Shown: positions 1,907 to 15,443 of the stretch, one piece after another
Layout of the letters: every line of letters starts with the position of its first letter
Numbering within the stretch: position 1 is the first letter of the stretch
Source: Nocardioides sp. L-11A
Lineage (GTDB): Bacteria > Actinomycetota > Actinomycetes > Propionibacteriales > Nocardioidaceae
Length of the DNA stretch: 64,000 nt
Assembly (NCBI GenBank): GCA_029961745.1
Contig: CP124680.1
Span: forward strand, 1,302,001 to 1,366,000
Direction: 5' to 3'
The notes under the pieces: generated by a model
What the model saw: the letters and a program-made list of their open reading frames with translations, nothing else
What the model was told of the DNA's origin: nothing
Databases searched by the model: none
Program-made: the position numbers and the translations under genes

Positions 1907-2520
1907 CAGCTCCCGCTGCCTCGCTGGCCACGCCGGGACGGCATGACCGCGATCCCGTCGGGCACCGGCTCGAGGCCGCCGGCGGTGCACATCAGCTCGC
2001 CCCACGCCTCGGCGTGGCTGGCCAGGTCGTCGTGGTCGACCGGCGTCCACGACGCCCGGATCTCCAGCTGGGCGTTCCCCGGCTCGTCGGCCATCGAACC
2101 GTAGCTCTCGGTCGCCACCCGGGTGACGGTGCCCGAGACGGCGACGTGCTCGGCGCCGTGCGCCGCGAGCGCGTCGGTCAGCCAGGTCCAGCCGACGTCG
2201 GTCAGCAGCGGGTCGGTCGCCAGGTCGTGATCGATCTCGGCCCGGCAGTACGCGACGCAGCGGAAGGTGCCCTCCCACGCGTCGTTGCCGGCCGGGTCGT
2301 GGAGCAGCACGAGTCGCCCCGTGGCGACCTCCTCGTCGTCCACGGTCACGTCGGCGGACAGCGCCGCGGCGTACGGCGCGATCCGCTGCGGTGCCGGCAT
2401 CTCCTCGCAGAACACCTCGGGACGGAACGAGGCGGCGCGCAGGCCTGCGACCGCAGCGGTGAACTCGGGGGGTGTGCCGGCCGCGCCGGATCCCTGGTTC
2501 ATCTCCTGGCGGGCGACCAT
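1906..2520 (-). CDS. DUF3000 family protein
   Basis: 204 residues, matching by eye the actinobacterial DUF3000 family (EVFCEEMPAPQRIAPYAAALSADV, RLVLLHDPAGNDAWEGTFRCVAY, LEIRASWTPVDHDDLASHAEAW). No biochemical function is known and no catalytic motif stands out. On the minus strand a TAGGGT hexamer (2532-2527) ends 6 nt before this ATG, the usual picture of a leaderless actinobacterial transcript, which supports the start. It is coupled to rnd by a one-base overlap. In other actinobacteria, from memory, this family sits close to hemE; here hemE is 11 kb away across an accessory block. Confidence 0.8.
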   Translation of the reverse strand: MVARQEMNQGSGAAGTPPEFTAAVAGLRAASFRPEVFCEEMPAPQRIAPYAAALSADVTVDDEEVATGRLVLLHDPAGNDAWEGTFRCVAYCRAEIDHDLATDPLLTDVGWTWLTDALAAHGAEHVAVSGTVTRVATESYGSMADEPGNAQLEIRASWTPVDHDDLASHAEAWGELMCTAGGLEPVPDGIAVMPSRRGQRGSGS

Positions 2521-2526
2521 GAGGCC

Positions 2527-2532
2527 ACCCTA
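2527..2532 (-). promoter_or_regulatory. -10 hexamer for leaderless DUF3000-rnd transcript
   Basis: TAGGGT on the minus strand ends 6 nt upstream of the ATG at 2520, so transcription would begin at or next to the start codon. It follows the same TANNNT-N6/7-start pattern as other genes of the window (starts at 9466, 43000, 45468, 54001, 57667). No -35 is obvious. Confidence 0.5.
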
Positions 2533-2593
2533 GGACCCCCGGGCCGGATCGATGTGCGTCCCACGCCGTCGGGCCGAGCCCGGATCCAGCACT

Positions 2594-2648
2594 CTCCAGC
2601 GTGACGCCAGTGTGACTCCAGTGCGACTGCAGTACGGCCGCCGAGGAT
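2594..2648 (+). promoter_or_regulatory. SARP-type direct-repeat operator and -10 (site A)
   Basis: Four consecutive 11-bp units start at 2594, 2605, 2616 and 2627 (CTCCAGCGTGA, CGCCAGTGTGA, CTCCAGTGCGA, CTGCAGTACGG); a weaker TCCAG lies 10 bp further upstream at 2585. Ten nt after the last CAG comes GAGGAT (2643-2648), a plausible -10, and the ATG at 2683 follows 34 nt later. Repeats at 11-bp pitch standing in place of a -35 are the known binding mode of SARP activators. The same design recurs at 4123-4186 and, on the minus strand, 13507-13466. The regulator encoded at 9466 is the obvious candidate; that link is inference. Confidence 0.65.
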
Positions 2649-2682
2649 CGCCGGGACGCTCGGGTCGCCCCGAAGGAGAACC

Positions 2683-4101
2683 ATGCCCCGCCTGCTCGCC
2701 CCTGCCCTCCGAGTCCTGCGGCCGCTGCTGACGCTGCTGGTCGCGGCCCTGCTCCTGACCGACCTGCGCCTGCTCTCGGCGGCCTCGGCCGGACCGGTGC
2801 CGCCGTTGGACGTGACGGTCTCCAACGTCAACGCACCGCGGATCAGCGCGCACATCGACCTCGCCCAGACCAGGCGGGACTACGGCGTCCCGTTCTTCGG
2901 GACCGTCACCGCCGACCTGCCGACCACCGTGCCGCCCGACGGCCGGGTCGAGATGATCTACGGCGGCAAGGTGGTGGCGAGCTACGACGTGCGCACGGAC
3001 GGCACCTTCGCCCTGCAGCCGAACGTCCATCCCTGTCCCTGCTGGTACCCGGTCGAGGTCCGCCTGGTGGGTGGATCGGCCTACGCGGACACCGCACCCG
3101 GGGCGGGCAGCTGGGTCGGCGACGTGCGCATCAACCCCATGGCCACCGAGCTGAGCGTCGCCCACAGCCAGAGCCCGGTCGCCCAGGGGGAGGCGTTCTG
3201 GGTGAGGGCCACGCTGCGTCCGGCCGATCCGGACGCCCTCTACGTCCCCAGCGGCACGATCACGGTCCGTGCCACGCCCGCCGCCGGCGGTGACGCGGTT
3301 CCGCTGGCGTCGCTGGCCACCCAGGGCGGCGCGCCGCTGGGGTTCGACCTCACCACCTGGGCCCGGGAGCACCCGGGCCAGTGGCTGATCACGGTCGAGT
3401 ACGTCCCGGGAACGGTCGACCCCGGACGGGTCGTCGGCTCCTCGTCGCAGTTCTCGCTCGACGTCCGCCAGCCCCGGCCGTGGCCGACCGACACCGAGCT
3501 GAGCACCGACCGGACCGAGCTGGTCGTCGAGGAGGCGCTCACCGGCAGCGTGCGCACCCTCGACCGCTACGGCACCGACGTCACCGCCACGACGACCCTG
3601 GAGATCGACGGCGAGACCTGGGCCCACGCGGAGGTCGAGAACGGCCGGTTCCGGTTGACGGGCCTGCCCGTCGGCGTCCACACCCTGCGGGCACACCACC
3701 CCGCCGATGCGGAGACCGGTGAGTCGACCAGTCCGCCGATCACCATCACGGTGGCCGCCGGCTCCCCGGACCCGGGTGATCCCCGTGACCCCGGCGGTCA
3801 CCACCAGCAGTCCCCGATGCCGCATCCCGCCGCGACCACGCTCGGGATCGGCAAGGTCAAGGCCCTCGCGGGCCGCCGGGTGCGGCTGAAGGTCACCGTC
3901 GGTGCCGCGGTCCCGGTGACGGGCACCGTCGTCGTCACCCGTGGCACGAAGGTCGTGGCCACCGGGCTCCTGCGCGCGGGTCGGGTCACGTTGACGACCA
4001 AGCGGCTCCCGCGCGGACGCGCCAGGCTGCGCATCGCCTACGCCGGCGCCCCTGGCCTGCTGCCCGCGCCCTCCCGCACGGTCAGGGTCCGCGTCCGCTG
4101 A
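2683..4101 (+). CDS. Secreted bacterial Ig-like domain protein
   Basis: 472 residues. A signal peptide is clear (RVLRPLLTLLVAALLLTD, cleavage probably near SAASA-G). The rest is beta-rich: an N-terminal region with a CPC motif (VHPCPCWYPVEV), an Ig-like domain around 270-360 (LVVEEALTGSVRTLDRYG, LTGLPVGVHTLRAHH), a Pro/His-rich linker (DPGDPRDPGGHHQQS) and a C-terminal Big_3-like domain (VPVTGTVVVTRGTKVVATG, LPRGRARLRIAYAG). No transmembrane anchor or sorting signal is visible, so it is probably released or non-covalently wall-bound. An SD (GAAGGAGAA) precedes the ATG. It is the first gene behind operator site A. Function unknown; adhesion or matrix role possible. Confidence 0.7.
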   Translation: MPRLLAPALRVLRPLLTLLVAALLLTDLRLLSAASAGPVPPLDVTVSNVNAPRISAHIDLAQTRRDYGVPFFGTVTADLPTTVPPDGRVEMIYGGKVVASYDVRTDGTFALQPNVHPCPCWYPVEVRLVGGSAYADTAPGAGSWVGDVRINPMATELSVAHSQSPVAQGEAFWVRATLRPADPDALYVPSGTITVRATPAAGGDAVPLASLATQGGAPLGFDLTTWAREHPGQWLITVEYVPGTVDPGRVVGSSSQFSLDVRQPRPWPTDTELSTDRTELVVEEALTGSVRTLDRYGTDVTATTTLEIDGETWAHAEVENGRFRLTGLPVGVHTLRAHHPADAETGESTSPPITITVAAGSPDPGDPRDPGGHHQQSPMPHPAATTLGIGKVKALAGRRVRLKVTVGAAVPVTGTVVVTRGTKVVATGLLRAGRVTLTTKRLPRGRARLRIAYAGAPGLLPAPSRTVRVRVR

Positions 4102-4122
4102 CGGGCCGACCAGCCCAACCAC

Positions 4123-4186
4123 TTCCAGTCAGTTCCAGCCAGTTCCAGCCAGCTCCCAGCGGCGCTCCAGTGCGCCCGCGGAGTCT
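4123..4186 (+). promoter_or_regulatory. SARP-type direct-repeat operator and -10 (site B)
   Basis: TTCCAG occurs at 4123, 4133 and 4143, then TCCCAG at 4154 and CTCCAG at 4165, so five elements at 10, 10, 11 and 11 bp. Ten nt after the last CAG lies GAGTCT (4181-4186), exactly where site A has GAGGAT. The downstream start is at 4216 (46 nt after the last repeat, against 50 in site A and 58 in site C). The repeats lie in the short space after the stop at 4101, so the oxidoreductase has its own promoter. Confidence 0.65.
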
Positions 4187-4215
4187 GGCCACCTCACTCA
4201 ATGCGAAGGAATCCC

Positions 4216-5496
4216 ATGTCTGCAGCCCTCCCCGTGTTCAACCTCGCCCACGCCCACGCCCCGCGTGAGGTGGTCGAGCCCCGTACCGCCGAGGAGGTGG
4301 CCGGCATCGTCCGCGCTGCCGCCGCTCGGGGTGAGCGGGTTCATCCCGTGGGCACCGGTCACGGCTGGACCCACGCGATCGAGGGCGGTGTCGCGCTGCT
4401 GACCCGTGGGCTCGCCGGGGTGGAGGTCGACCCCGCCACGCGAATCGCCCGGATCGGCGCAGGAGCGACCTGGGCCGACGTGATCGCGGCCGCCGCCCCG
4501 CACGGGCTGGCGCCGCTGGCCGGCTCGGCACCCGGCGTCGGCGCGGTCGGCTACCTGCTCGGCGGCGGGCTCAGCCCGCTGGGCCGCAGCTTCGGATGGG
4601 CGAGCGACTTCGTGCGCTCCGCCGAGATCGCGACGGGCGCCGGCGAGCTCCTCACCGTCTCCGCCACGAGTCATCCGGACCTGCTCGCCGCGCTGCTCGG
4701 TGGAAAGCACCTGCCTGGCGTGGTCACCTCGGTCGAGCTCGGGCTGGTCGAGCTGACCACGGTGTACGGCGGCGGCCTGTTCTTCGACGCCGCCGATGCC
4801 GAGCGGGTGCTGACGGAGTGGGCCGTGTGGTCCGCGCTCGTGCCGGAGCAGGCCAACACCTCCGCCGCCCTGCTGCGCCTGCCCGACCTCGACTTCGTCC
4901 CTGCGCCACTGCGAGGCCGGTTCGTCGTGCACCTGCGGGTCGCGGTCGTGGCCGACGCGGAGGAGGGGGCCGCCCTGGTCGAGCCGCTGCGCAAGCTGGC
5001 CGACCCGATCGTCGACACCGTCGCCGAGCTGCCGGTGACCGCGCTCGGCGCGATCCACGCCGACCCCGACCAGCCGATGCCGGCGCTGGAGGCGGGAGCG
5101 CTCCTGCGCGACTTCGACCCGGCTGCTGCCCGGGCAATGCTCGCGGCCGCCGGTCCGCAGGTCGAGGTCCCACTGACCGTCGTGGAGGTACGACGCCTCG
5201 GCGGCCGCCTGGCCCAGGCGCCGCAGCGCCCGGACTCGGTCGTGGGCCGCGACGCGGCGTACGGGCTCTTCGTGGTCAGCGTCCCCGTGCCCGAGCTGTT
5301 CGCCGGGCCGGTGCCGGCCGCTGTCGGCGGGCTCGCCAAGGCGATGGCGCCGTGGGCGAGTGGTGGCTTCCAGCCCAACTTCGTCGGCTCCTTGAACCAG
5401 CCGAGCGCGCTCGAGACGGCATGGCCTGCCGAGATGCGCGAGCGGCTGGAGCGCGTTCGGGAGCACCACGACCCGGCCGGCGTCATCGGCCACTGA
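4216..5496 (+). CDS. FAD-linked oxidoreductase (PCMH/VAO type)
   Basis: 426 residues from the ATG at 4216, which has GAAGGA 5 nt upstream; an in-frame ATG at 4201 lacks an SD. The N-terminal half is a PCMH-type FAD-binding domain: EPRTAEEVAGIVRAA, then GTGHGWTH (the position where relatives carry the FAD-linked His), GAGATWADV and GYLLGGGLSPLGRSFGWASD. The usual RGGGGNFGVVT segment is replaced by LLGGKHLPGVVTSVELGL, and there is no Cys for a second flavin bond. The C-terminal substrate domain is divergent, so the substrate cannot be read. No signal peptide is seen, so probably cytosolic. It is the only gene of the block with an evident redox chemistry. Confidence 0.75.
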   Translation: MSAALPVFNLAHAHAPREVVEPRTAEEVAGIVRAAAARGERVHPVGTGHGWTHAIEGGVALLTRGLAGVEVDPATRIARIGAGATWADVIAAAAPHGLAPLAGSAPGVGAVGYLLGGGLSPLGRSFGWASDFVRSAEIATGAGELLTVSATSHPDLLAALLGGKHLPGVVTSVELGLVELTTVYGGGLFFDAADAERVLTEWAVWSALVPEQANTSAALLRLPDLDFVPAPLRGRFVVHLRVAVVADAEEGAALVEPLRKLADPIVDTVAELPVTALGAIHADPDQPMPALEAGALLRDFDPAAARAMLAAAGPQVEVPLTVVEVRRLGGRLAQAPQRPDSVVGRDAAYGLFVVSVPVPELFAGPVPAAVGGLAKAMAPWASGGFQPNFVGSLNQPSALETAWPAEMRERLERVREHHDPAGVIGH

Positions 5497-5550
5497 CCCG
5501 ATCCGGTCCGCCACGCGGCCCGGGCAACGATGCAGGAACAGGTGGAAGTC

Positions 5551-6804
5551 ATGACAACTCAGCGAACCCGCACTGCCGTGGCGGCGATGGCCCTGGTACT
5601 GGCCGGTGGATCTCCCGTCCTGGGGCAGCAGACGGCGACCGCGGCCAGCACGGAGAGCCGGATGATGGCGGCGTCTGCCGGCACCCTCGTGTACGTCAAG
5701 GACCACAACGTCTGGATCTCCCGTCCCGACGGAAGCGGCCAGCGGCAGGTCACCGCGGACGGCACGGCGTCCTGGCCGTACTTCTCGCCGTCGATGGCCG
5801 ACGACGGAACGATCGTCGCCGGGCACGACGGGCAGATCGTCCGGATGCGTCAGGGCGGCACCCCCCTCAGCCGCTTCACGCCGCGAGCGTTGAAGGGCTC
5901 GCTCACCAACCTCGGCCAGGTCGCGATCGCACCGAACGGCGCCAAGATCGCCTACAGCATGGTGAACACCGGTTGCACGGGAACGGGATGCTCGACCGCC
6001 ACGGGCTACACGGCCTCCGGCCGGGCCACCGACCCGGAGACGGACGGGTCCACCTACTTCAAGATGCCCTCATGGGCGGGCAGCAGCCGAACGTTGCAGA
6101 GCGGCGGCTCCGGCTCCGAGGTGATGGTCCACGATCTCGGTGGCGGCGCCGTGCACTGGTTCGACACGCAGGGCGGGATCACCGATGTCGAGCTCTCCCC
6201 GGACGGTCGGCGCCTCGCCGGTGCGGCCGGCTACCAGGGCAACGACGGCATCTCCACCTACGACGCCGACAGGGACGTCACCAGTGGCCCGGTCCCGCTC
6301 CCTCCGGACCACCGGTGCACGTGGGACTACGACGACGGCGGAGCGCTCGTGAGCCCGACGTGGGGCCCGGACAGCAGGGCACTGGCAGTCCAGGCCGACA
6401 ACGGTGTCTGGGTCGCGGACGACGTCACGGTGGGTTGCGACGCCGTGAGCTTCCACCTGCTGATCCCCGGTGCCTCGGCTCCCGACTGGTCTGCCGCGAT
6501 CTACGACCCCGAGCCGCTCGGGACTCAGCACGGCTCCTTCACCGCCACCACCGCGCCCAAGGTCAAGGGCAAGGCGAAGGTCGGCAAGGTGCTCAAGGCC
6601 AAGGCCGGCGCATGGTCGCCGGCGCCCGCTGCGGTCGCCTACCAGTGGCTGCGCAACGGAAAGCCGATCAAGAAGGCCAAGAAGGCCTCCTACCGCGTGA
6701 CGCGCAAGGACCGCGGCAAGCGGATCTCCGTGCGCCTGACGGTCAGCAAGCCCGGCCTGGCCAGCGCGACGTGGACCAGCGCACCCAAGAAGGTGAAGCG
6801 ATGA
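5551..6804 (+). CDS. Secreted TolB-like beta-propeller protein, paralogue 1
   Basis: 417 residues from the ATG at 5551 (an in-frame ATG at 5530 would add 7 residues ahead of the signal peptide). After the signal peptide (AVAAMALVLAGGSPVLG) come TolB/WD40-like blades beginning GTLVYVKDHNVWISRPDGSGQRQVTADG and further blades with SPDGRRLAGAAGY and WGPDSRALAVQ. The C-terminal ~80 residues are a separate Ig-like fold (KVKGKAKVGKVLKAKAG, YQWLRNGKPIKKAKKASY, TRKDRGKRISVRLTV) shared with the next two genes. The stop overlaps the next start (ATGA). Probably extracytoplasmic sensing, binding or scaffold role; no catalytic residues recognised. It lacks a clear repeat-type operator of its own. Confidence 0.75.
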   Translation: MTTQRTRTAVAAMALVLAGGSPVLGQQTATAASTESRMMAASAGTLVYVKDHNVWISRPDGSGQRQVTADGTASWPYFSPSMADDGTIVAGHDGQIVRMRQGGTPLSRFTPRALKGSLTNLGQVAIAPNGAKIAYSMVNTGCTGTGCSTATGYTASGRATDPETDGSTYFKMPSWAGSSRTLQSGGSGSEVMVHDLGGGAVHWFDTQGGITDVELSPDGRRLAGAAGYQGNDGISTYDADRDVTSGPVPLPPDHRCTWDYDDGGALVSPTWGPDSRALAVQADNGVWVADDVTVGCDAVSFHLLIPGASAPDWSAAIYDPEPLGTQHGSFTATTAPKVKGKAKVGKVLKAKAGAWSPAPAAVAYQWLRNGKPIKKAKKASYRVTRKDRGKRISVRLTVSKPGLASATWTSAPKKVKR

Positions 6805-8090
6805 GGACCTTGCTCCATGCCGCCGCAGCCGCCGCAGCCGCCGCAGCCGGCGCGATCGCCCTGAGCGGCCTGGCCGCGGGTGCCACCACGGCCGCCGCCG
6901 CGGACAGCCCGGACCTGCCGGGCACCCTGCTCTACGTCAAGGGGTACGACGTCTACGCGGCGCACCCCGACGGCACCGGGGAGCGCCGACTCACCACCGA
7001 CGGCACCGCGACCTCGCCGTACCACTCGCCGACCGGTGACGACCACGGCCGGGTGGTTGCCGTGCGGGGTTCCCTGATCCACCGGATGACCATCACCGGC
7101 AGCCCGCTCAACACCATCGACCCGCCGAACCTCATCGACGTGTGGGGCAACCCGCTCGGGCCCGACCTGGACACGGCGGCCGTCTCACCCGACGGCACCA
7201 AGATCGCCTACTCCTACGAGGGCACCGTGTGCCAGTGGGTCTGCGGTCCGGTCTGGGCCACCGCGATCACCGCTGCGGATCACCTCACCCCGCCCTCGGA
7301 CGAGAGCCAGGCCAGCGAGGACAACCCGAGCTGGGTCACCGACTCCCGGCTGATCCTCAACGACAGCGGCGAGCTCGGTGTCGACGTCCTGGACCTGGGC
7401 AAGGAGCCGGCGAAGGACTGGTTCCACGAGGGCACCAGTCCCACCGCGGTGCAGTTCAGCGAGCCGGTCACCTCGCGTGATGGCGCCATGCTGGCGCTGG
7501 TGCGCGGCGAGGGCGCCGAGGCTCACGTCGCGACGTACCGCCTCGACGGCGACATCCGCACGGACACGACGCCGGTGGAGCCGACCCGAGTGTGCGTCAA
7601 CGACCCGGTCGCCGGCCAGGGCAGTCCCGCCTTCGCGCCCGACGGCAGCGCGCTGGCGTGGTCGCAGCCCGACGGCGTCTGGGTCAAGCCGGACCCGCTG
7701 GACTGCGCGGCCGAGGCGGCCCGGGTCGTCGCCGGCGGCACCGAGGTCTCCTGGACCACGGCGCAGCTGCCCGCCGTACCCGACCAGCAGCAGGATCCGG
7801 GCAGCAAGACTCCTGTCACCGGGCTCGCGCTGCAGACCGCGCCCCGCCTGGTCGGCAAGGCGTGGGCCGGCAAGGTGCTCAAGGTCAAGGGCGGTGCCTG
7901 GGCGCCCGCGCCGAGCGCGCTCACCTACCAATGGCTGCGCAACGGCAAGCCGATCAAGAAGGCCACCGAGGCGTCGTACCGGATCACCCGCAAGGACCGC
8001 GGCAGACGGATCTCGGTCCGCGTCACCGCCGACACCGCCGGCCTGGCCGGCTCCGTATGGACGAGCAAGAAAGTGAAGGTCCGCCGATGA
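6801..8090 (+). CDS. Secreted TolB-like beta-propeller protein, paralogue 2
   Basis: 429 residues, starting in the ATGA overlap with paralogue 1. The signal peptide contains a ten-alanine run encoded by three perfect 9-bp units (GCCGCAGCC at 6822-6848), a slippage-prone but in-frame repeat. Blades open with GTLLYVKGYDVYAAHPDGTG and continue with VSPDGTKIAYSYEG, NPSWVTDSRLILND and SPAFAPDGSALAWSQ. The same C-terminal Ig-like domain is present (YQWLRNGKPIKKATEASY, TRKDRGRRISVRVTAD). It is closer to paralogue 3 than to paralogue 1, suggesting two successive duplications. Confidence 0.75.
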   Translation: MRTLLHAAAAAAAAAAGAIALSGLAAGATTAAAADSPDLPGTLLYVKGYDVYAAHPDGTGERRLTTDGTATSPYHSPTGDDHGRVVAVRGSLIHRMTITGSPLNTIDPPNLIDVWGNPLGPDLDTAAVSPDGTKIAYSYEGTVCQWVCGPVWATAITAADHLTPPSDESQASEDNPSWVTDSRLILNDSGELGVDVLDLGKEPAKDWFHEGTSPTAVQFSEPVTSRDGAMLALVRGEGAEAHVATYRLDGDIRTDTTPVEPTRVCVNDPVAGQGSPAFAPDGSALAWSQPDGVWVKPDPLDCAAEAARVVAGGTEVSWTTAQLPAVPDQQQDPGSKTPVTGLALQTAPRLVGKAWAGKVLKVKGGAWAPAPSALTYQWLRNGKPIKKATEASYRITRKDRGRRISVRVTADTAGLAGSVWTSKKVKVRR

Positions 8091-9379
8091 GACGGCTGCT
8101 GACCACCCTCGCGGCAGGGCTGATCGCCCTGTCGACCCTGTCCCTGGCCGAGACGCCGGAGGCATCGGCCGCGGCCGCTCCCGGCCCGGGCACGATCGTC
8201 TATCTCAAGGGCTATGACGTCTACGTCGCCCAGCCGGACGGCTCGGGCGAGCGGCGACTCACCACCGACGGCACCGCCGCAGCGCCCTGGAGGTCGCCGA
8301 CCGGGGCCGACGACGGGACGGTCGTCGCGGTCCACGGCTCGGTCCTGCACCGGATGGACCAGTGGGGAACGGTGTTGAACTCGATCGACCCGCCGGACCT
8401 GCGTGACTCGGCCGGCCAGGTCACCGGGGGCGCCATCGACAAGGCGGCGGTCTCGCCCGACGGCGGGCTGATCGCCTATTCCTACAGCCGCTACAGCTGC
8501 CCGCCGGGCCTGGCCTGCAAGACCCGCTGGGCCACCACCGTGACCGCGGCCACCGGGCTGACCTCGCCGGACGTCTACGGCACCACCCTCTACGGCAACC
8601 CGAGCTGGGTCACCGGCTCGCGGCTGATCGTCAATGGGAAGGACTTCGACGCGATCCAGCTCTTCGAGCTGGCGACCAGCACCAAGCAGTGGTTCCATGA
8701 CGGGGCCCACTCGGGCGAGTACCTCCAGCTGTCGGACCCGGCCGTGTCCCGCGACGGCACGCTGCTCGCCACCTTGCGCGGCGACGGCGACCAGTCGCAC
8801 ATCTGGACCTACCAGGTCGAGGGCAACGTGCACTACGGATCGCCGCCCGCCCCGCCGACGCCCGTGTGTGCCGCCGACCCGCGCGGCCCCGGTTACGCGA
8901 GCCCGACGTTCGCGCCGGACAGCAGCGCCATCGCCTGGCAGGAGTCGACCGGCATCGTGGTCAAGCCCGCACCGTTGGTCTGCGCGGTGCAGCCCGAGCT
9001 GGCCATCCCGGGCGGCGCGGACCCGCATTGGACGAATGCAGCGCTGCAGACCGTCCGGCCGACGTACCCGGCCCCGCCCGGGAGCAAGGGTCCCCAGACC
9101 AGCGGCGGCAGCTTCACGCTCGCCGTGGCCCCGAAGGTCGCCGGCAAGGCGCGTGTCGGCAAGGTGCTCAAGGTCAAGGGCCTCACCTGGTCCCCGGCGC
9201 CGGGCAAGGTCTCCTACCAGTGGCTGCGCAACGGCAAGGCGATCAAGAAGGCCACGAGGGCGTCGTACCGGATCACCCGCAAGGACCGCGGTAAGCGGGT
9301 CTCGGTCCGGGTCACCGCCAGCGCCTCCGGCCTCGCGAGCACGTCGTGGACCAGTCCGAAGACCAAGGTCAGGCGTTGA
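8087..9379 (+). CDS. Secreted TolB-like beta-propeller protein, paralogue 3
   Basis: 430 residues, start within an ATGA overlap with paralogue 2. Signal peptide LTTLAAGLIALSTLSLAETPEASA; propeller segments GTIVYLKGYDVYVAQPDGSG, AAVSPDGGLIAYSY, NPSWVTGSRLIVNG and SPTFAPDSSAIAWQ; C-terminal Ig-like domain with YQWLRNGKAIKKATRASY and TRKDRGKRVSVRVTAS. The cysteine pairs around the fourth and sixth blades (CPPGLACK; VCAADP and LVCAVQ) resemble those in paralogue 2 and may form disulfides. It ends 86 bp before the regulator gene, which has its own leaderless promoter. Confidence 0.75.
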   Translation: MRRLLTTLAAGLIALSTLSLAETPEASAAAAPGPGTIVYLKGYDVYVAQPDGSGERRLTTDGTAAAPWRSPTGADDGTVVAVHGSVLHRMDQWGTVLNSIDPPDLRDSAGQVTGGAIDKAAVSPDGGLIAYSYSRYSCPPGLACKTRWATTVTAATGLTSPDVYGTTLYGNPSWVTGSRLIVNGKDFDAIQLFELATSTKQWFHDGAHSGEYLQLSDPAVSRDGTLLATLRGDGDQSHIWTYQVEGNVHYGSPPAPPTPVCAADPRGPGYASPTFAPDSSAIAWQESTGIVVKPAPLVCAVQPELAIPGGADPHWTNAALQTVRPTYPAPPGSKGPQTSGGSFTLAVAPKVAGKARVGKVLKVKGLTWSPAPGKVSYQWLRNGKAIKKATRASYRITRKDRGKRVSVRVTASASGLASTSWTSPKTKVRR

Positions 9380-9452
9380 GCCTGGACGCGCTGCCGGTTT
9401 CGGAGACAGCGCCGATGTCCCCGATACCGGCGTACGGCGACGCGGAACTAGG

Positions 9453-9458
9453 TAGCGT
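9453..9458 (+). promoter_or_regulatory. -10 hexamer for leaderless SARP-receiver gene
   Basis: TAGCGT ends exactly 7 nt before the ATG at 9466, so the regulator-kinase pair is probably transcribed without a leader and separately from the propeller genes. No TCCAG-type repeats precede it, so there is no sign of autoregulation by the same sites. Confidence 0.5.
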
Positions 9459-9465
9459 CGCCCCG

Positions 9466-10716
9466 ATGAGGATGCGCGTGCTGGGCCCGGTGGAGGTCGA
9501 GGTCGACGGTCACCCGCTCGACCTCGGTGCCCCGAAGCCCCGCCGGCTGCTGGCGGTGCTGGCCCTGCACCGGGGTCAGCCGGTCAGCCCGGAGACGATC
9601 GCGGAAGCGCTGTGGGGCGACGAGCCACCGGCCAGCCACGCCGTGACGATCCAGGGCTACGTGTCCGGACTGCGCAAGGTGCTCGAGCCCGACCGTGCCG
9701 CGCGCGCAGCCGGCACGGTGATCCAGACCTCGGCCCTCGGCTACGCGCTGCGGCTGCCGGTGGAGGACATCGACGCCGCCCGGCTCGAGGCCGCGGTCAG
9801 GTCCGCGGGAGCCGCCGCGCGCACCGATCAGGACCGGCCCTGGCTCCTCGCCGGCGCCTCGGACTCCGACGCCCTCGCAGCCACGGCGGACCTCCTCGAC
9901 GAGGCGCTGGAGGCATGGCGAGGAGAGCCGTACGCCGACCTCGCCGACGACCCCGTCATCGCGGTCGAGCGCACCCGGCTGCACGAGGTGCGCACGGCCG
10001 CGGTGGAGATCCGTGAGCTGATCCGGATGCATCGTGGCGACGCCGCCGCTGCGGCCCGCCGGCTGGAGGTCGAGGCCGCCGTGGCGCCCCACCGCGAGCG
10101 GCTCTGGCTGCTGTACGCCGCCGCGCTGGTCCGTGCCGATCGGCAGGTCGACGCACTCGCCGCACTACGTCGACTGCGCGACACCCTGCGCGAGGAGCTC
10201 GGCGTCGACGCCAGCCCCGCCGTCGGCGCGCTCGAGACGGCCATCCTGCAGCAGCGGGTCGCCCCCGGCGCCGGCGCCGGCGCCGCGCCCGCGGCCGTGC
10301 TCCGGGTGGCCGTCGTCGACGACCACCCGATGTTCCGAATGGGCATGACCGGCCTGCTCGGCTCGCTCGACGGTCTCGAGCTGGTCGGCGGGGCGGGGGA
10401 CTCGGCCGGCGCCCGCGAGCTGGCGGTGCGCGGCGTCGACGTCGTGCTGATGGACCTCGACCTGGCGGGGGAGTCAGGCATCGACCTCACCCGCGAGCTG
10501 GTGCGCATGCATCCCGAGCTCAAGGTGCTGGTGATGACCATGCACGAGGACGACGACCATGTCGCCGGCGCCTTGCAGGCCGGCGCGGCGGGCTACCTGC
10601 TGAAGTCGGCGGAGGCGGAGGACGTCCAGCGCGCCATCCGGGCGGTGGCGCGCGGCGAGTTGATCATCGGCTCGGCGGTGGCGCGCGCCGCGCGCTCGCG
10701 CCTGGCACGGCCGTGA
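9466..10716 (+). CDS. Response regulator with N-terminal SARP (wHTH + BTAD) and C-terminal receiver domain
   Basis: 416 residues. Residues 1-~95 form the OmpR-like winged helix of SARP regulators (MRVLGPVEVEVDG, GAPKPRRLLAVLALH, ISP-like PVSPETIAEALWGDEPP, GYVSGLRKVLEP). About 100-265 is the bacterial transcriptional activation domain (YADLADDPVIAVERTRLHEVR, RLWLLYAAALVRADRQVDALAALRRLR, EELGVDASPAVGALE). About 280-400 is a receiver: acidic pair Asp285/286, phospho-acceptor Asp330 (VVLMDLDLAGESGID), switch Lys in GYLLKSAE. The receiver is of NarL type, yet the LuxR-type HTH that normally follows is missing: the protein stops ~15 residues after it. It overlaps the kinase start by 4 nt (GTGA). 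Probable activator of sites A-C; longer in-frame starts upstream are less likely given the -10 at 9453. Confidence 0.85.
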   Translation: MRMRVLGPVEVEVDGHPLDLGAPKPRRLLAVLALHRGQPVSPETIAEALWGDEPPASHAVTIQGYVSGLRKVLEPDRAARAAGTVIQTSALGYALRLPVEDIDAARLEAAVRSAGAAARTDQDRPWLLAGASDSDALAATADLLDEALEAWRGEPYADLADDPVIAVERTRLHEVRTAAVEIRELIRMHRGDAAAAARRLEVEAAVAPHRERLWLLYAAALVRADRQVDALAALRRLRDTLREELGVDASPAVGALETAILQQRVAPGAGAGAAPAAVLRVAVVDDHPMFRMGMTGLLGSLDGLELVGGAGDSAGARELAVRGVDVVLMDLDLAGESGIDLTRELVRMHPELKVLVMTMHEDDDHVAGALQAGAAGYLLKSAEAEDVQRAIRAVARGELIIGSAVARAARSRLARP

Positions 10717-12776
10717 GCCTCGCGCCGGACCGCCACCCCCGGTGCTGGTGGGTCCTGGCCTGGCTGATCGCCTGCACGGCATGGCTGTTGTCCGCCGGGG
10801 CGGTGCTGGCGCTGATCAGCACCGGGGTCACGCCCCCCGGCGTCGCGGACTGGATCATGGACGTGGTGACGTCGGCCGTCTACGGCGGCGTCGTGCTGAT
10901 GATGCTGCCCCGGGCTCGGCACCCGGTCGTGTGGATCCTGGCGCTGACCGCGCTCGGCTGCGGCGCCTCCGGCCTGGCGGCCGGGTACGTCGCCCTCGAC
11001 GGCTGGCCGGGGCAGGACCTCGCGATCTACCTGCCGTTCTGGGCATGGGTGCCCGGCGTGTACGCAACGGTGTCGGTCGTCCCGTTGCTCGTCGTGCCGG
11101 GCGCACGTCACCGGTGGCCCGCAGTGGCGCTCGCGACGGTCGCGATCGGGGCCGCCACCGTGCCGAGCCTGACCGTCGTGGTGCCCGGTCTGCCGCCCAA
11201 CCCGTTCGGCATCGACGTCGAGTGGTGGCAGTCGCTCATGGCCGCCCTCGGTCTCTGGCCGGACCGGACGGTCGCCGCGCTCGGTGCGTGCGTGTGGGTC
11301 TGGCTGCTCGTGCGGGTGCGCCGCACCCCGGCCGAGGAGAGGCGTGGACTCACCTGGCTGCTCGCGGGACACGGCGCGATGGTCATCGCCCTGGTGGCCT
11401 TCCTGCTGCCGCTCTCGACCGACCTGATGGGCGCGGCGGTCGAGGTGAGCGGCACCCTCCTGCTCCTGGCGCAGCTCTTCCTCCCGGCGGCGCTGCTCGT
11501 GCTGGTGCTCGGCCAGCAGTTGTGGGGTGTCGACGCCCGCGTCAACCGCGGCGTGGTCTGGCTCATGATGACGGTGGTCATCGCGCTGGCCTACCTCGCG
11601 CTGATCGGCCTGGCCGCGCAGGTGCTGCCTGACCAGTCGGACGTGGCTCTGGCCCTCGCGGTCGGGCTGGTCGGGCTCGGGGCGACGCCGCTGCGCCGAC
11701 TGGTGCAGCGCCGGGTCGACCGCCTCGTCTACGGCACCGGTCCCGACCCGGCCCGGCTGCTGTCCCGTGCCGACAGCGAGGGCGGATACGACATCGACAG
11801 CCTGGCTGCCGGGCTCTGTCGGAGCCTGCGCCTGGCCGACGTACACATCCTCGTCTCCCGGGAGGGCGAGCCGGCGTCGGCCTCCGGTGCCGTCGGCGGC
11901 GATGACGTGGTGTTGACGCTGACGAGTCGTGGCACGGATGTCGGCGTGCTGATCGCCCGGCCTCGCCCGGGCGAGCGGCTCGACCGTCGGACGATCGCGA
12001 TGCTCACCGAGGTGGCCGGCCTGGTCGGCATGACCATCGACCTGATGCAGTCGGTGCAGGCGCTCAGTGCCGCCCGACGTCGGATGACAGGTATCCGGCA
12101 CGAGGAGCGCCGGATGCTCCGGCGCGACCTGCACGACGGCCTCGGTCCGGCGCTGGCCGGGATCCGGCTGGGCCTGATCGCCGCGCGCGGCATGCGGGAC
12201 CCGCGGGCGTCGGAGGAGATGCTCGACGCCTTGGAGCGCGAGCTGACCCAGCAGGGCGAGGAGGTACGCCGGCTCAGCCGCTCGCTGGTCCCGCTGGCTC
12301 TCGATGACGGTGACCTCGCGAGCGCACTCGCCACGCTCGCCGAGCGCTTCACCGCGGACGGCCTGGTGGTCCGGGCCGCGGTGGCCGACGACGTGATGTT
12401 GGAGGCGTCCGTCCAGGTCGCCGTCTACCAGATGGCCAGCGAGGCACTGCTCAACGTCCGCCGGCACGCGCAGGCCACCCGCTGCGATGTCGTACTGCGT
12501 CAGCGCGCCGATGGGCACGTCGTCTTCTCGGTCTCCGACGACGGCATCGGCATGGCCGAGGACAGGGTCGACGGCATCGGCCTGCGCTCGATGCGCGAGC
12601 GCGCCCAGGAGCTCGGCGGCGCGCTCCGGGTCTCCTCGGGATCGGCCGCGGGGACGGGCAGCCGGATCGAGCTGCGGCTGCCGCCCTCCGCGACCGAAGC
12701 GGGCTCCGGCCCGGGCTCAGCCGAAGACCTCGGCCTCCCGGCGCGCGAATCGCCGTCGCGAGCTGGCCAGCAGTAG
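10713..12776 (+). CDS. NarL/DesK-type sensor histidine kinase with multipass membrane sensor
   Basis: 687 residues starting with GTG in a GTGA overlap with the regulator. The N-terminal ~330 residues contain about nine hydrophobic segments, the first WVLAWLIACTAWLLSAGAVL. A short GAF-like region lies at ~345-440. The HisKA_3 dimerisation domain carries LRRDLHDGLGPALAG with the phospho-acceptor His474, followed by a HATPase_c domain (N box MASEALLNVRRHAQ, G1 DDGIGM, G2 GIGLRSMRERA). This kinase class normally phosphorylates NarL/LuxR regulators, consistent with the NarL-type receiver of the partner. With no extracytoplasmic domain of size, the signal is probably sensed in or at the membrane. 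The 3' end overlaps the hemerythrin gene by 60 nt. Confidence 0.9.
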   Translation: MSLAPDRHPRCWWVLAWLIACTAWLLSAGAVLALISTGVTPPGVADWIMDVVTSAVYGGVVLMMLPRARHPVVWILALTALGCGASGLAAGYVALDGWPGQDLAIYLPFWAWVPGVYATVSVVPLLVVPGARHRWPAVALATVAIGAATVPSLTVVVPGLPPNPFGIDVEWWQSLMAALGLWPDRTVAALGACVWVWLLVRVRRTPAEERRGLTWLLAGHGAMVIALVAFLLPLSTDLMGAAVEVSGTLLLLAQLFLPAALLVLVLGQQLWGVDARVNRGVVWLMMTVVIALAYLALIGLAAQVLPDQSDVALALAVGLVGLGATPLRRLVQRRVDRLVYGTGPDPARLLSRADSEGGYDIDSLAAGLCRSLRLADVHILVSREGEPASASGAVGGDDVVLTLTSRGTDVGVLIARPRPGERLDRRTIAMLTEVAGLVGMTIDLMQSVQALSAARRRMTGIRHEERRMLRRDLHDGLGPALAGIRLGLIAARGMRDPRASEEMLDALERELTQQGEEVRRLSRSLVPLALDDGDLASALATLAERFTADGLVVRAAVADDVMLEASVQVAVYQMASEALLNVRRHAQATRCDVVLRQRADGHVVFSVSDDGIGMAEDRVDGIGLRSMRERAQELGGALRVSSGSAAGTGSRIELRLPPSATEAGSGPGSAEDLGLPARESPSRAGQQ

Positions 12777-13424
12777 CCGCATCGGCGGCCCGCCGATCGC
12801 GGCGACCCGGCTCGCGGCGGCCTCGTCGAGATCCTTGAAGATCCACGGCAGGAACCGGCGGGCGTGGCCGACGGAGGGCCGGCCCCGGAACCTGTCGCGC
12901 TCGATGACCTCCCACTCCTCGCCAGGCACGTAGCGCTGCAGGATCGGCACCGCCGCGGACTCCTCGTGGCCGAGGTGCTCGTCCAGCGCGCGCTCCAGGT
13001 CGGCCAGGTCGGCGAGCAGGTCGGTCCGCAGATCGTCCCGCCGGCCCGGCTCGGGGCTCGCCGCCAGCGCGGAGAATCCGGCGTCGCAGGAGGTCAGCAG
13101 CGGGTCGAGCGTGGTGTGCTCGCTCTCCATCTCCTCGAGCACCCGCAGGCTGTCGACGTCGTCGGCGCCGCGGGCCCGCTCGGCGAGCAGCGGCCAGAGG
13201 ATCTCGTCCTCCTTGGTGTGGTGGCTGTGCAGTTCGGTGGTGAACAGCTGCCAGCGCTCTGCCAGCCGCCGCCACGCCGACCGGTCGTCGAGCGGGAGGG
13301 CGACGACGGCGCGGAAGTCGCGCAGGTCGCGCCGGAAGGCGTGGTGCAGGACGTACATCATCGTCAGGTCGGCAGGTCCCGGCGGGGCGGCGGCCTGGCC
13401 GGGCAGCAGGATCTGGTCGGTCAT
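12717..13424 (-). CDS. Hemerythrin HHE-domain protein
   Basis: 235 residues. The HHE cation-binding helices are visible: YVLHHAFRRDLRDF, ELHSHHTKEDEILWPLL, MESEHTTLDPLL and LDEHLGHEESAAVPIL, giving the His/Glu set of a diiron site that may bind oxygen or NO. No membrane segment or signal peptide. The start at 13424 has a strong SD (AAAGAGGA). Upstream on the minus strand lies site C, with the same repeat and -10 spacing as sites A and B, so it is probably co-regulated with the secreted proteins on the plus strand. It converges on the histidine kinase with 60 nt of shared coding sequence. Confidence 0.85.
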   Translation of the reverse strand: MTDQILLPGQAAAPPGPADLTMMYVLHHAFRRDLRDFRAVVALPLDDRSAWRRLAERWQLFTTELHSHHTKEDEILWPLLAERARGADDVDSLRVLEEMESEHTTLDPLLTSCDAGFSALAASPEPGRRDDLRTDLLADLADLERALDEHLGHEESAAVPILQRYVPGEEWEVIERDRFRGRPSVGHARRFLPWIFKDLDEAAASRVAAIGGPPMRLLLASSRRRFARREAEVFG

Positions 13425-13465
13425 CGGTTCCTCTTTCGACGGCGGGCGCGGTGGTGCGTGGGACC

Positions 13466-13507
13466 ACGCTCGCGCCCACCACTGGAGTGGCGCTGGTGTG
13501 CGGCTGG
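13466..13507 (-). promoter_or_regulatory. SARP-type direct-repeat operator and -10 (site C)
   Basis: Read on the minus strand, CCAG occurs at 13507, 13496 and 13485, two intervals of exactly 11 bp (TTCCAG, CACCAG, CTCCAG). Ten nt after the last CAG is GAGCGT (13471-13466), matching GAGGAT and GAGTCT at sites A and B at the same offset. The hemerythrin start is 58 nt after the last repeat. The proximal repeat also lies in a short palindrome, CCACT-GG-AGTGG (13479-13490). The region is also 80-108 bp upstream of hemE, but the orientation points to the hemerythrin gene. Confidence 0.6.
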
Positions 13508-13587
13508 AACCCCGCACGGAAGCCTCCCGGGCATCCCGATCCGCCCGCGATGGCGGCCCCGGGGGAGTCGTCTGAGACCCTGACCCC

Positions 13588-14634
13588 GTGACCGCCCCAC
13601 TTGCTGACAGCGCATTCCTCAAGGCAGCCCGCGGCGAGGCGGTGCCGCACACGCCGGTGTGGTTCATGCGGCAGGCGGGGCGCTCGCTGCCGGAGTACCT
13701 CGCGACCCGTGAGGGGGTCGCCATGCTCGACGCCTGCGCCGACCCCGACCTCATCGTCGAGATCACCCTGCAGCCCGTGCGCCGGTACGCCGTCGACGCG
13801 GCCATCTTCTTCTCCGACATCGTGCTGCCGCTCAAGGCGGTCGGCGTCGACCTCGACATCGTCCCCGGTGTGGGTCCCGTCGTCGCGACGCCGGTCCGCA
13901 CGCTCGCCGATGTCGAGGCGATCCCCGATCTCACTCCCGAGCAGATCCCGTACATCACCCAGGCCGTCCAGGGCCTCGTGGCCGAGCTCGCCGGCCTCAA
14001 CGGCGGCACGCCGCTGATCGGGTTCGCCGGGGCGCCGTTCACCGTGGCGTCGTACCTCGTCGAGGGCGGACCCTCCAAGGAGCACGCGAAGACCAAGGCG
14101 CTGATGTTCGGCGCGCCCGACGTGTGGGACGCGCTGATGCGCAAGATCGCGGGCATCTCCGCGGCCTTCCTCGAGACCCAGGTCGCGGCCGGGGCCTCCG
14201 CGGTGCAACTGTTCGACTCGTGGGCGGGCGCGCTGACCCGTGAGGACTACGTCCGCTACGTGCAGCCGCACTCCGCCGGTGTCCTGGAGCGGATGGGGGA
14301 GCTCGGCGTCCCGCGCATCCACTTCGGTGTCGGTACGTCGAACCTGCTCGACCTGATGGGCGAAGCCGGCGCCGACGTGGTCGGCGTCGACTGGCGCACG
14401 CCGCTGGAGCGGGCGATCCCGCTGGTCGGCGAGCGCGGGGTGCAGGGCAACCTCGACCCGACCCTGGTGTTCGCGCCGACCGAGCTGATGACCGAGCGCG
14501 CCGCGGCGATCATCGAGGCCGGGCGGGCCGCCCGCGGGCACATCTTCAACCTCGGCCACGGCGTCATCCCCAGCACCGATCCCGACCAGCTCGCGCGGCT
14601 GACCGAGTTCGTGCACGCCTACCCCTTGGGCTGA
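13588..14634 (+). CDS. hemE: Uroporphyrinogen decarboxylase
   Basis: 348 residues, full family length. Converts uroporphyrinogen III to coproporphyrinogen III in heme synthesis. Family motifs are intact: [13 protein letters not shown] near the N-terminus, [61 protein letters not shown] and [11 protein letters not shown]. The start is GTG at 13588 with no clear SD. The 3' end overlaps the convergent NYN gene by 16 nt. No other heme gene is nearby. Confidence 0.95.
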
Positions 14635-15443
14635 GTGGTCTTCTTGGCGGAGGTCCGCGCGGCGGTCTTCCGCGGGGCGGGGGCGACCTGGCCCTTGAGG
14701 CCGACCCGGATGCCGGCGCCCGTGCCGCTGGTGGTCAGGTAGCCCTGGCCCTCGACCAGGGTGACCAGCTTCGCGGCGCCGTACAGCCGGGGGTCGAAGG
14801 ACGAGTCCGCCGAGCGCAGGTAGCTGCCGATCGCGCTGAGGTGTGCCCAGCCGTCGTCGTCGGAGGTGGCGTTGACCGCCCGGCTGAGCAGGCTCTGCAG
14901 GTTCGGCAGCGGTGCGACCGGCTCGGCCTCCTCGGCTGTCTGGGCCCCGTCGGCCTCGTCCTCGCCCACCGAGGCGGGCGAGGACGAGGCCGCCCCCTGC
15001 TCGCCCAGCACCTCGAGGTAGATGAAGGTGTCGACCGCGGCGACGAGGGACTGCGGCGTCTTGCGCAGTCCGAGGCCGTAGACGGTCTTGCCCGACTCGC
15101 GCAGCCGGGTCGCGAGCCGGGTGAAGTCGCTGTCGCTGGACACGAGCGCGAACGCGTCGAGGTTGCCGGAGTAGAGCAGGTCCATCGCGTCGATGATCAG
15201 CGCCGAGTCGGTCGCGTTCTTGCCGGTCGTGTAGGCGAACTGCTGCACCGGGACGATGGCGTGCCGGTTGAGCTGGGCCTTCCAGCCGCCGAGCTGGGGC
15301 GTCGTCCAGTCGCCGTAGGCCCGCTTGACCGTCGCCACGCCGTACGTCGCCAGCTCCTCCAGCAGGGCGCTGACGTGCTTCGGGGAGGTGTTGTCGGCAT
15401 CGATGAGGACGGCCAGCCGCGCGGTGCTCGAGGTGGTGGTCAC
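14619..15443 (-). CDS. NYN-domain ribonuclease-like protein with C-terminal LOTUS/OST-HTH domain
   Basis: 274 residues from GTG 15443. Residues ~9-145 are a NYN (PIN-like) domain: [15 protein letters not shown] supplies the first acidic cluster, then [17 protein letters not shown] and [21 protein letters not shown] the others. After an acidic linker, residues ~185-255 ([37 protein letters not shown]) fit an OST-HTH/LOTUS RNA-binding domain, and the C-terminus is Lys/Ala-rich. The domain pair suggests an RNA nuclease or RNA-binding regulator; the target is unknown. The reading frame is open further upstream, but translation there is low-complexity shadow sequence. Confidence 0.8.

Follow-up and report, generated by a model that had tools for sequence, protein, structure and literature searches.

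The window analysed here, 64,000 nucleotides of the soil bacterium Nocardioides sp. L-11A (GCA_029961745.1, contig CP124680.1, positions 1,302,001 to 1,366,000), holds a block of genes for secreted proteins, a flavin adenine dinucleotide (FAD) oxidoreductase, a SARP-type regulator, a histidine kinase, and a hemerythrin protein, and at three sites of this locus—A, B, and C—an array of short (Y)CCAG-like elements stands in front of a putative −10 hexamer (Table 1). Read base by base, the CAG trinucleotides start at 2587, 2597, 2608, 2619, and 2630 in site A (pitch 10, 11, 11, and 11 bp), at 4126, 4136, 4146, 4157, and 4168 in site B (10, 10, 11, and 11 bp), and, on the minus strand, at 13506, 13495, and 13484 in site C (11 and 11 bp). 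The spacer from the last CAG to the hexamer is exactly 10 nt each time, the hexamer-proximal steps are all 11 bp, and 10-bp steps are confined to the distal end of A and B. A Shine–Dalgarno sequence and an ATG follow downstream of each hexamer, the start codon lying 50 nt (A), 45 nt (B), and 57 nt (C) from the last CAG. A first-pass annotation, made from the letters alone, had described three arrays with a 10–11 bp pitch and a fixed 10-nt spacing, and our re-reading bears this out with five, five, and three elements, as it does the start codon distances, which agree within one base; the array of site A stands, its extent being longer by one element (2585–2589). A promoter scan of 2500–13700 found no sigma-70 consensus promoter, which we count in favor of reading the arrays as SARP operators.

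The regulator contains Trans_reg_C and BTAD domains, both above the Pfam cut-off, and a Response_reg domain was also found; among relatives in the PDB, EmbR and AfsR align with the first two thirds of the protein, and VraR, ChrA, DevR, and NarL with its last 140 residues. No Pfam match to a LuxR helix-turn-helix occurs in the protein, and its output domain is the SARP domain. The SARP domain had been recognized at first pass, but the protein is not a plain SARP: it is fused to a receiver and accompanied by a histidine kinase gene of its own, a feature that had gone unseen. A protein search in which the best 7995 candidates were scored gave 35 proteins at E ≤ 1e-60, and all three domains are present in 34 of them, the protein of the window included, the 35th being shorter and listed without Trans_reg_C. 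All 34 aligned homologues keep the receiver residues D285 and D286 (acidic pair), D330 (phospho-Asp), T358, and K380 without exception. Confidence in the predicted structure is high inside each domain (mean pLDDT 92.4), with a weak linker at 269–275; with a pTM of 0.66, the model leaves the arrangement of the receiver and SARP domains open. The kinase has the H-box RRDLHDG and several hydrophobic segments. Over the receiver of the regulator, 57–58% is shared with receiver–LuxR proteins of Oerskovia. The SARP–receiver protein is rare, as it was found in 8 of 215 genomes of the genus at E ≤ 1e-85 and in 5 of 293 genomes of a sample of the order, all five belonging to this genus.

Table 1. Arrays, putative −10 hexamers, and genes of the locus (positions in the window)
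Feature	Position	Strand	Description and basis
Site A array	2585..2632	+	Five (Y)CCAG-like elements, the last TGCAG; read from sequence, spacing checked by script
Site A putative −10, GAGGAT	2643..2648	+	10 nt after last CAG
Site B array	4124..4170	+	Five (Y)CCAG elements; read from sequence
Site B putative −10, GAGTCT	4181..4186	+	10 nt after last CAG
Site C array	13482..13508	-	Three (Y)CCAG-like elements; read from sequence
Site C putative −10, GAGCGT	13466..13471	-	10 nt after last CAG
Regulator, Trans_reg_C + BTAD (SARP) + C-terminal NarL-type receiver	9466..10716	+	Pfam, PDB relatives, homologues, predicted structure
Histidine kinase (HisKA_3, HATPase_c)	10713..12776	+	4-nt overlap with regulator gene; open reading frame (ORF) list, Pfam
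Secreted Ig-like protein (Big_3_5)	2683..4101	+	Behind site A; ORF list, Pfam
FAD_binding_4 oxidoreductase	4216..5496	+	Pfam
TolB-like secreted protein 1	5551..6804	+	Weak DPPIV_N match under Pfam cut-off (ORF scanned from 5530)
TolB-like paralogue 2	6801..8090	+	ATGA overlap with gene of TolB-like protein 1
TolB-like paralogue 3	8087..9379	+	
Hemerythrin (HHE) protein	12717..13424	-	Behind site C; Pfam

The arrays recur at orthologous loci. With the window counted, the genes of the FAD oxidase, the regulator, and the kinase are kept in that order in 7/7 loci, and the hemerythrin gene and the TolB-like genes are each found in 6/7. An array precedes the FAD oxidase gene in six of the seven orthologues examined (window, G140, G034, G086, G135, and G125, in our genome numbering) and the hemerythrin gene in five of six (window, G140, G034, G125, and G135), and the FAD and hemerythrin promoter arrays were equalled in none of 200 Markov shuffles each. 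One imperfect element each occurs in the FAD arrays of G135 and G125 and in the hemerythrin array of G135, and the hemerythrin arrays of G140 and G034 end in CAAG. In Nocardioides sp. SLBN-35, arrays stand at both the FAD and the hemerythrin genes; at the position of site A, G140 and SLBN-35 have an array and then a different gene (TolB-like in G140), and genes beside or divergent from the block also have arrays in G140, G135, G125, and G146. When 19 sites were chosen for comparison, the CC-AG words and the 11-bp step stood out and the bases between the elements varied; the scan itself imposes much of this CC-AG/11 pattern and the A and T of the hexamer, but not the G that is the first hexamer base in 18 of the 19 sites. 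This set excludes the weak G086 site as well as the CATCGT and RCC1-Ig sites described below.

Across the orthologues, the number of repeats at the FAD promoter spans 3 to 11. The operator with 11 elements is that of G140 (locus L054, minus strand, ~16914–16799), which is mostly a pure 10-bp tandem repeat, CCAACCCCAG, the orthologues having 3–5 elements; possibly, repeat length tunes the operator. Divergent from the hemerythrin gene (L054, oriented 13908; L055, 14797) lies a CCAG-type array whose hexamer is CATCGT and not GANNNT, and it precedes the gene of a 566-aa propeller-like protein in G140, only a short ORF having been found there in G034. Distant from the regulator, CCAG-type arrays also precede the gene of a secreted RCC1-Ig protein in G135 and G140. 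This protein was found in 4 of 11 genomes searched (G183, G140, G135, and G042), with no match in the genome of the window, and its promoter has an array of this type in all four, although G135 (CCAA) and G042 (CAAG) each contain a single imperfect element. G183 and G140 are identical over protein and promoter and therefore represent one event; in G042, the gene adjoins a different SARP gene.

Across the 5.68-Mb genome, three CCAG elements at a pitch of 10–11 bp occur at seven places (10 matches), three of the seven being A, B, and C, and the same pattern read backward as a control gave 40 matches, so the raw count alone proves nothing. Sites A, B, and C nevertheless fall within 10.9 kb, where the four other places in 5.68 Mb predict ~0.01 per such stretch, and this clustering is improbable by chance even though the raw count is not in excess. 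A looser pattern of two repeats with GAGNNT had 13 genome matches including the three sites (control 9), three repeats with GANNNT at ≤1 mismatch had four, again including the three (control 5), and many genomes of the genus, searched with one mismatch, were likewise at about the level of the backward control. We therefore rejected raw motif counts as proof; discrimination comes only from the location, spacing, and conservation of the arrays. As regards the chance frequency that had been raised at first pass, genome counts are not above the control, but the arrays are conserved upstream of orthologues.

Several of the genus-wide matches at ≤1 mismatch adjoin other SARP genes (G047 twice, G042, G006, G061, G080, and G033), which suggested a wider rule. 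The promoters of distant FAD oxidases were intended as a negative control, and 14 of these 21 (L220–L240) carry TCAAG-type arrays by eye, and it was this result that prompted a genus-wide SARP test. The test set consisted of 48 further SARP loci (L241–L288) of 20 kb each (two shorter), SARP loci fetched earlier not being in the set, and the controls were 40 same-genus regions at fixed arbitrary coordinates; elements were scored with A, C, G, or T as the middle base. At pitch 11 and offset 10, 45 A- or C-form arrays were found, in 36 of the 48 SARP loci and in none of the 40 controls, whereas the other pitches (8–10 and 12–14) yielded 0–1 arrays and the other offsets (4–9 and 11–16) 0–2. By middle base, the SARP loci contain 44 arrays with A, one with C, one with G, and none with T, and the hexamer stands at offset 10 in 44 of the 46 A-form arrays at pitch 11. 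CAAG is therefore the common form, and the CCAG of the window a minority form. The 7 orthologous loci have 17 C-form arrays in 6 loci, and 10 loci picked by distant FAD oxidases have 12 A-form arrays in 9, with a SARP gene in 9/10. As several SARP loci share one genome or related genomes, their independence is incomplete. Orthologous sites have GANNNT as the hexamer, and other SARP loci often have CANNNT, and the GAGNNT of the first-pass annotation thus describes A–C without being a consensus; its proposal of a new SARP regulon with the motif TCCAG is supported as to the SARP operators, but TCCAG is a minority form of a genus-wide YC[A/C]AG class.

The genes behind 44 arrays include 16 for MMPL, 10 for FAD_binding_4, and 9 for hemerythrin proteins, and 35 of the 44 have a Shine–Dalgarno sequence and an ATG. 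A homologue of the hemerythrin or FAD oxidase of the window is present in 37/48 SARP loci vs 0/40 controls. Of 20 distant hemerythrins (L193–L212), only four reached p ≤ 0.01 for their best C-form score in the 500 bp searched, and one of these four was CAAG-like. In 75 further actinobacterial SARP loci (L096–L170), pitch 11 and offset 10 gave four A-form matches and one C-form match, and pitches 9 and 12 showed noise in the G- and C-forms; a search for exact triples, too narrow in scope, covered 23 short SARP loci, mostly flanked by 1.5 kb, and gave one CCAG locus. In Actinomadura pelletieri (L147, minus strand, hexamer at 14045), of another actinobacterial family, three TCCAG at 11 bp are followed by 10 nt and TAGCTT, and a SARP gene lies a few kb away.

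The operators of ActII-ORF4 and DnrI are TCGAG heptamers, which have the TC-AG frame and the 11-bp pitch in common with the arrays; the middle base is G there, whereas it is C at A–C, where TCGAG-type heptamers do not occur, and just one array among the 48 SARP loci has the G-form. According to a structural paper of 2024, the repeats of SARP promoters lie 11 (or 22) bp apart, with 8 bp between the 3' repeat and the −10 (PMC10936776). If the hexamer is the −10, the arrangement at A, B, and C (TCCAGNN, 8 nt, GANNNT, and a pitch of 11) has this spacing, and the Streptomyces SARP geometry to which they had been likened is matched. AfsR at the afs box of afsS in Streptomyces coelicolor shares the SARP domain, direct repeats at 11 bp that cover the −35 position, and the poor −10 (PMC10936776), and the conserved A of the repeat stands 12 nt before the −10 in afsS and here, assuming that the afsS −10 is −12 to −7. 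AfsR, however, has NOD and TPR domains where our regulator has a receiver, and the afs box has two repeats of CGTT(T/C)ATCGNN (PMC10972967), whereas the arrays here have three to eleven of (Y)CCAG. Among the PimR, SanG, and PolR operators, the PimR site consists of three CGGCAAG heptamers with 4-bp spacers, with a secondary site at a 10-bp pitch (PMC3367932), and its core resembles the CAAG form at most SARP loci of the genus; that site is remote from the −10 and −35 of the promoter it controls, whereas our arrays sit next to the hexamer with constant spacing and, in the window, have C as the middle base. The PapR2 repeat GTCAGSS (PMC7040171) has CAG in the same register, but GT and not TC precedes it, and PapR2 acts in antibiotic gene clusters. 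With regulators of the NarL/VraR type, ours shares the aligning receiver and the adjacent HisKA_3 kinase, but the receiver stands at its C-terminus, and a SARP domain at the N-terminus serves as output where those regulators have a LuxR helix-turn-helix. In the ferroverdin and bagremycin clusters, the SARP FevR/BagI occurs together with the FAD oxygenases FevA1/BagK (PMC6692506), as a SARP and a related FAD enzyme do here; the closest NCBIfam models of our FAD oxidoreductase are indeed BagK/FevA1 and BagG/FevA2, but the FAD and SARP scores are far under the model cut-offs, and no ferroverdin or bagremycin biosynthetic genes were seen in the annotated stretch 2683–13424.

It is thus very probable that the arrays A–C are a genuine genetic switch and did not arise by chance. 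The layout is real and conserved, and it represents a variant of the known SARP kind. Reading the arrays as SARP operators fits best because of the published promoter rule, the conservation at orthologous loci, and the occurrence in 36 of 48 SARP loci vs none of 40 controls, and we are fairly confident that A, B, and C are the operators of the SARP–receiver protein of the locus, a two-component SARP driving its own operon and the flanking genes. In this model, neighbouring winged-helix domains of the protein would occupy the (Y)CCAG elements at about one per helical turn, covering the −35 position, and the bound domains would keep RNA polymerase at a promoter with a poor −10 (GANNNT) that it would otherwise ignore, in the manner of AfsR. 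The kinase encoded by the overlapping gene would signal to the receiver, presumably by phosphorylation, and thereby switch the SARP to activation. Site B would drive an operon that includes the regulator and kinase genes, giving positive feedback, site A the gene of the secreted Ig-like protein, and site C the hemerythrin gene. The range of three to eleven elements suggests that occupancy is graded and that the three hexamer-proximal elements would be the essential ones.

Several observations weigh against this assignment. The FAD gene of G146 lacks a full array, and the hemerythrin gene of G086 lacks an array, this genome having only a weak one before the TolB-like gene upstream of hemerythrin. 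The raw motif counts in the genome itself do not exceed the backward controls. Among the highly conserved DNA contacts of AfsR (Q48, W74, P79, T88, R94, and K95; PMC10936776), alignment shows four of six kept in our regulator (W50, P55, R70, and K71), with Q48 replaced by K24 and T88 by G64, and R92, which contacts a base in AfsR (PMC10936776), corresponds to G68. Finally, the genome has five BTAD matches, four of them besides the regulator, which leaves more than one candidate reader of the arrays.

These matches, together with a grammar that serves many SARPs of the genus, make cross-talk between SARPs possible, and another SARP of the genome may read the operators, alone or together with the protein of the locus. 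We consider this unlikely, as the full CCAG architecture occurs in this genome only at this locus, bar one place with one mismatch, 8 of the 14 zero-mismatch places listed over 147 genomes of the genus lie in SARP–receiver loci, and the order of FAD oxidase, regulator, and kinase genes is invariably kept. Much less probable still, the arrays could belong to another response regulator of the OmpR type that uses direct repeats of 11 nt, for example PhoP, whose sites overlap the AfsR site at the Streptomyces afsS promoter, where it competes with AfsR (PMC10972967); GTTCC is present in site B, but sequence reading found no GTTCA-type 11-nt repeats (pho box) in A–C, and the arrays accompany SARP genes, no link to PhoP having turned up, though no PhoP search was made. 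That they are low-complexity tandem repeats or chance products of GC-rich DNA with coincidental hexamers is strongly disfavored, since, despite the 10-bp tandem repeat in the distal part of the G140 FAD array and raw counts equal to the backward controls, orthologous promoters preserve where the arrays stand and how they are spaced although the intervening bases differ, and the peak at pitch 11 and offset 10 is sharp in SARP loci, with nothing in arbitrary loci.

SARPs have mostly been described as activators of Streptomyces antibiotic clusters. We lean towards the view that the SARPs of Nocardioides are instead general plug-in activators and not antibiotic-cluster specialists, with one grammar—about three YC[A/C]AG words at pitch 11 and 10 nt to [G/C]ANNNT—and with swapped sensor ends and recurring targets, namely MMPL exporters, hemerythrins, FAD oxidases, and secreted propeller and Ig proteins. 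The SARP–receiver protein would then be a two-component system that holds the polymerase between −35 and −10. As to the sensor end, six of seven other SARPs scanned (651–1361 aa, stop to stop) have an AAA_16 (STAND-like) ATPase behind BTAD and one (345 aa) does not, whereas in the lineage of the window a receiver takes this place, with a separate kinase. One promoter grammar allows SARP targets to be called from sequence across the genus, the recurring targets being redox, export, and secreted-protein genes, and through the receiver fusion a SARP would come under the control of a kinase signal, which would make the role of the C-terminal sensor of a SARP directly testable. We do not claim a residue code for the recognition helix (AfsR positions 87, 88, and 92) of CCAG- vs CAAG-linked SARPs, as G stands at the T88 position in most CCAG-linked but also in several CAAG-linked SARPs. 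In a limited literature search, none of the titles and abstract openings listed described a SARP–receiver fusion or two-component SARP, a Nocardioides SARP, a TCCAG-binding SARP, or a link between hemerythrin and a SARP.

Some further features of the locus and of the genomes deserve mention. The hemerythrin protein has a weak match, under the cut-off, to the iron-sulfur repair protein RIC/YtfE, and the 3' ends of its gene (minus strand) and of the kinase gene (plus strand) overlap by 60 bp (12717–12776). Just past the hemE orthologue, a CACAG-like row in 11-bp steps with AACACTGGTGGTCACC downstream occurs at L054 (oriented 16803), L091 (15258), and L055 (~16167), and none was seen at 14601–14760 of the window. 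Outside the window, zero-mismatch arrays of three CAAG lie at G000:C1:319377 (L343) and G000:C1:1527061 (L344), with the hexamers GACCCT and GACGCT, the control pattern giving 0; neither is close to any BTAD match of the genome. Both arrays stand directly before start codons, that of L344 before the gene of a 173-aa protein and that of L343 before the gene of a secreted repeat protein, whose repeats we take to resemble RTX calcium-binding repeats.

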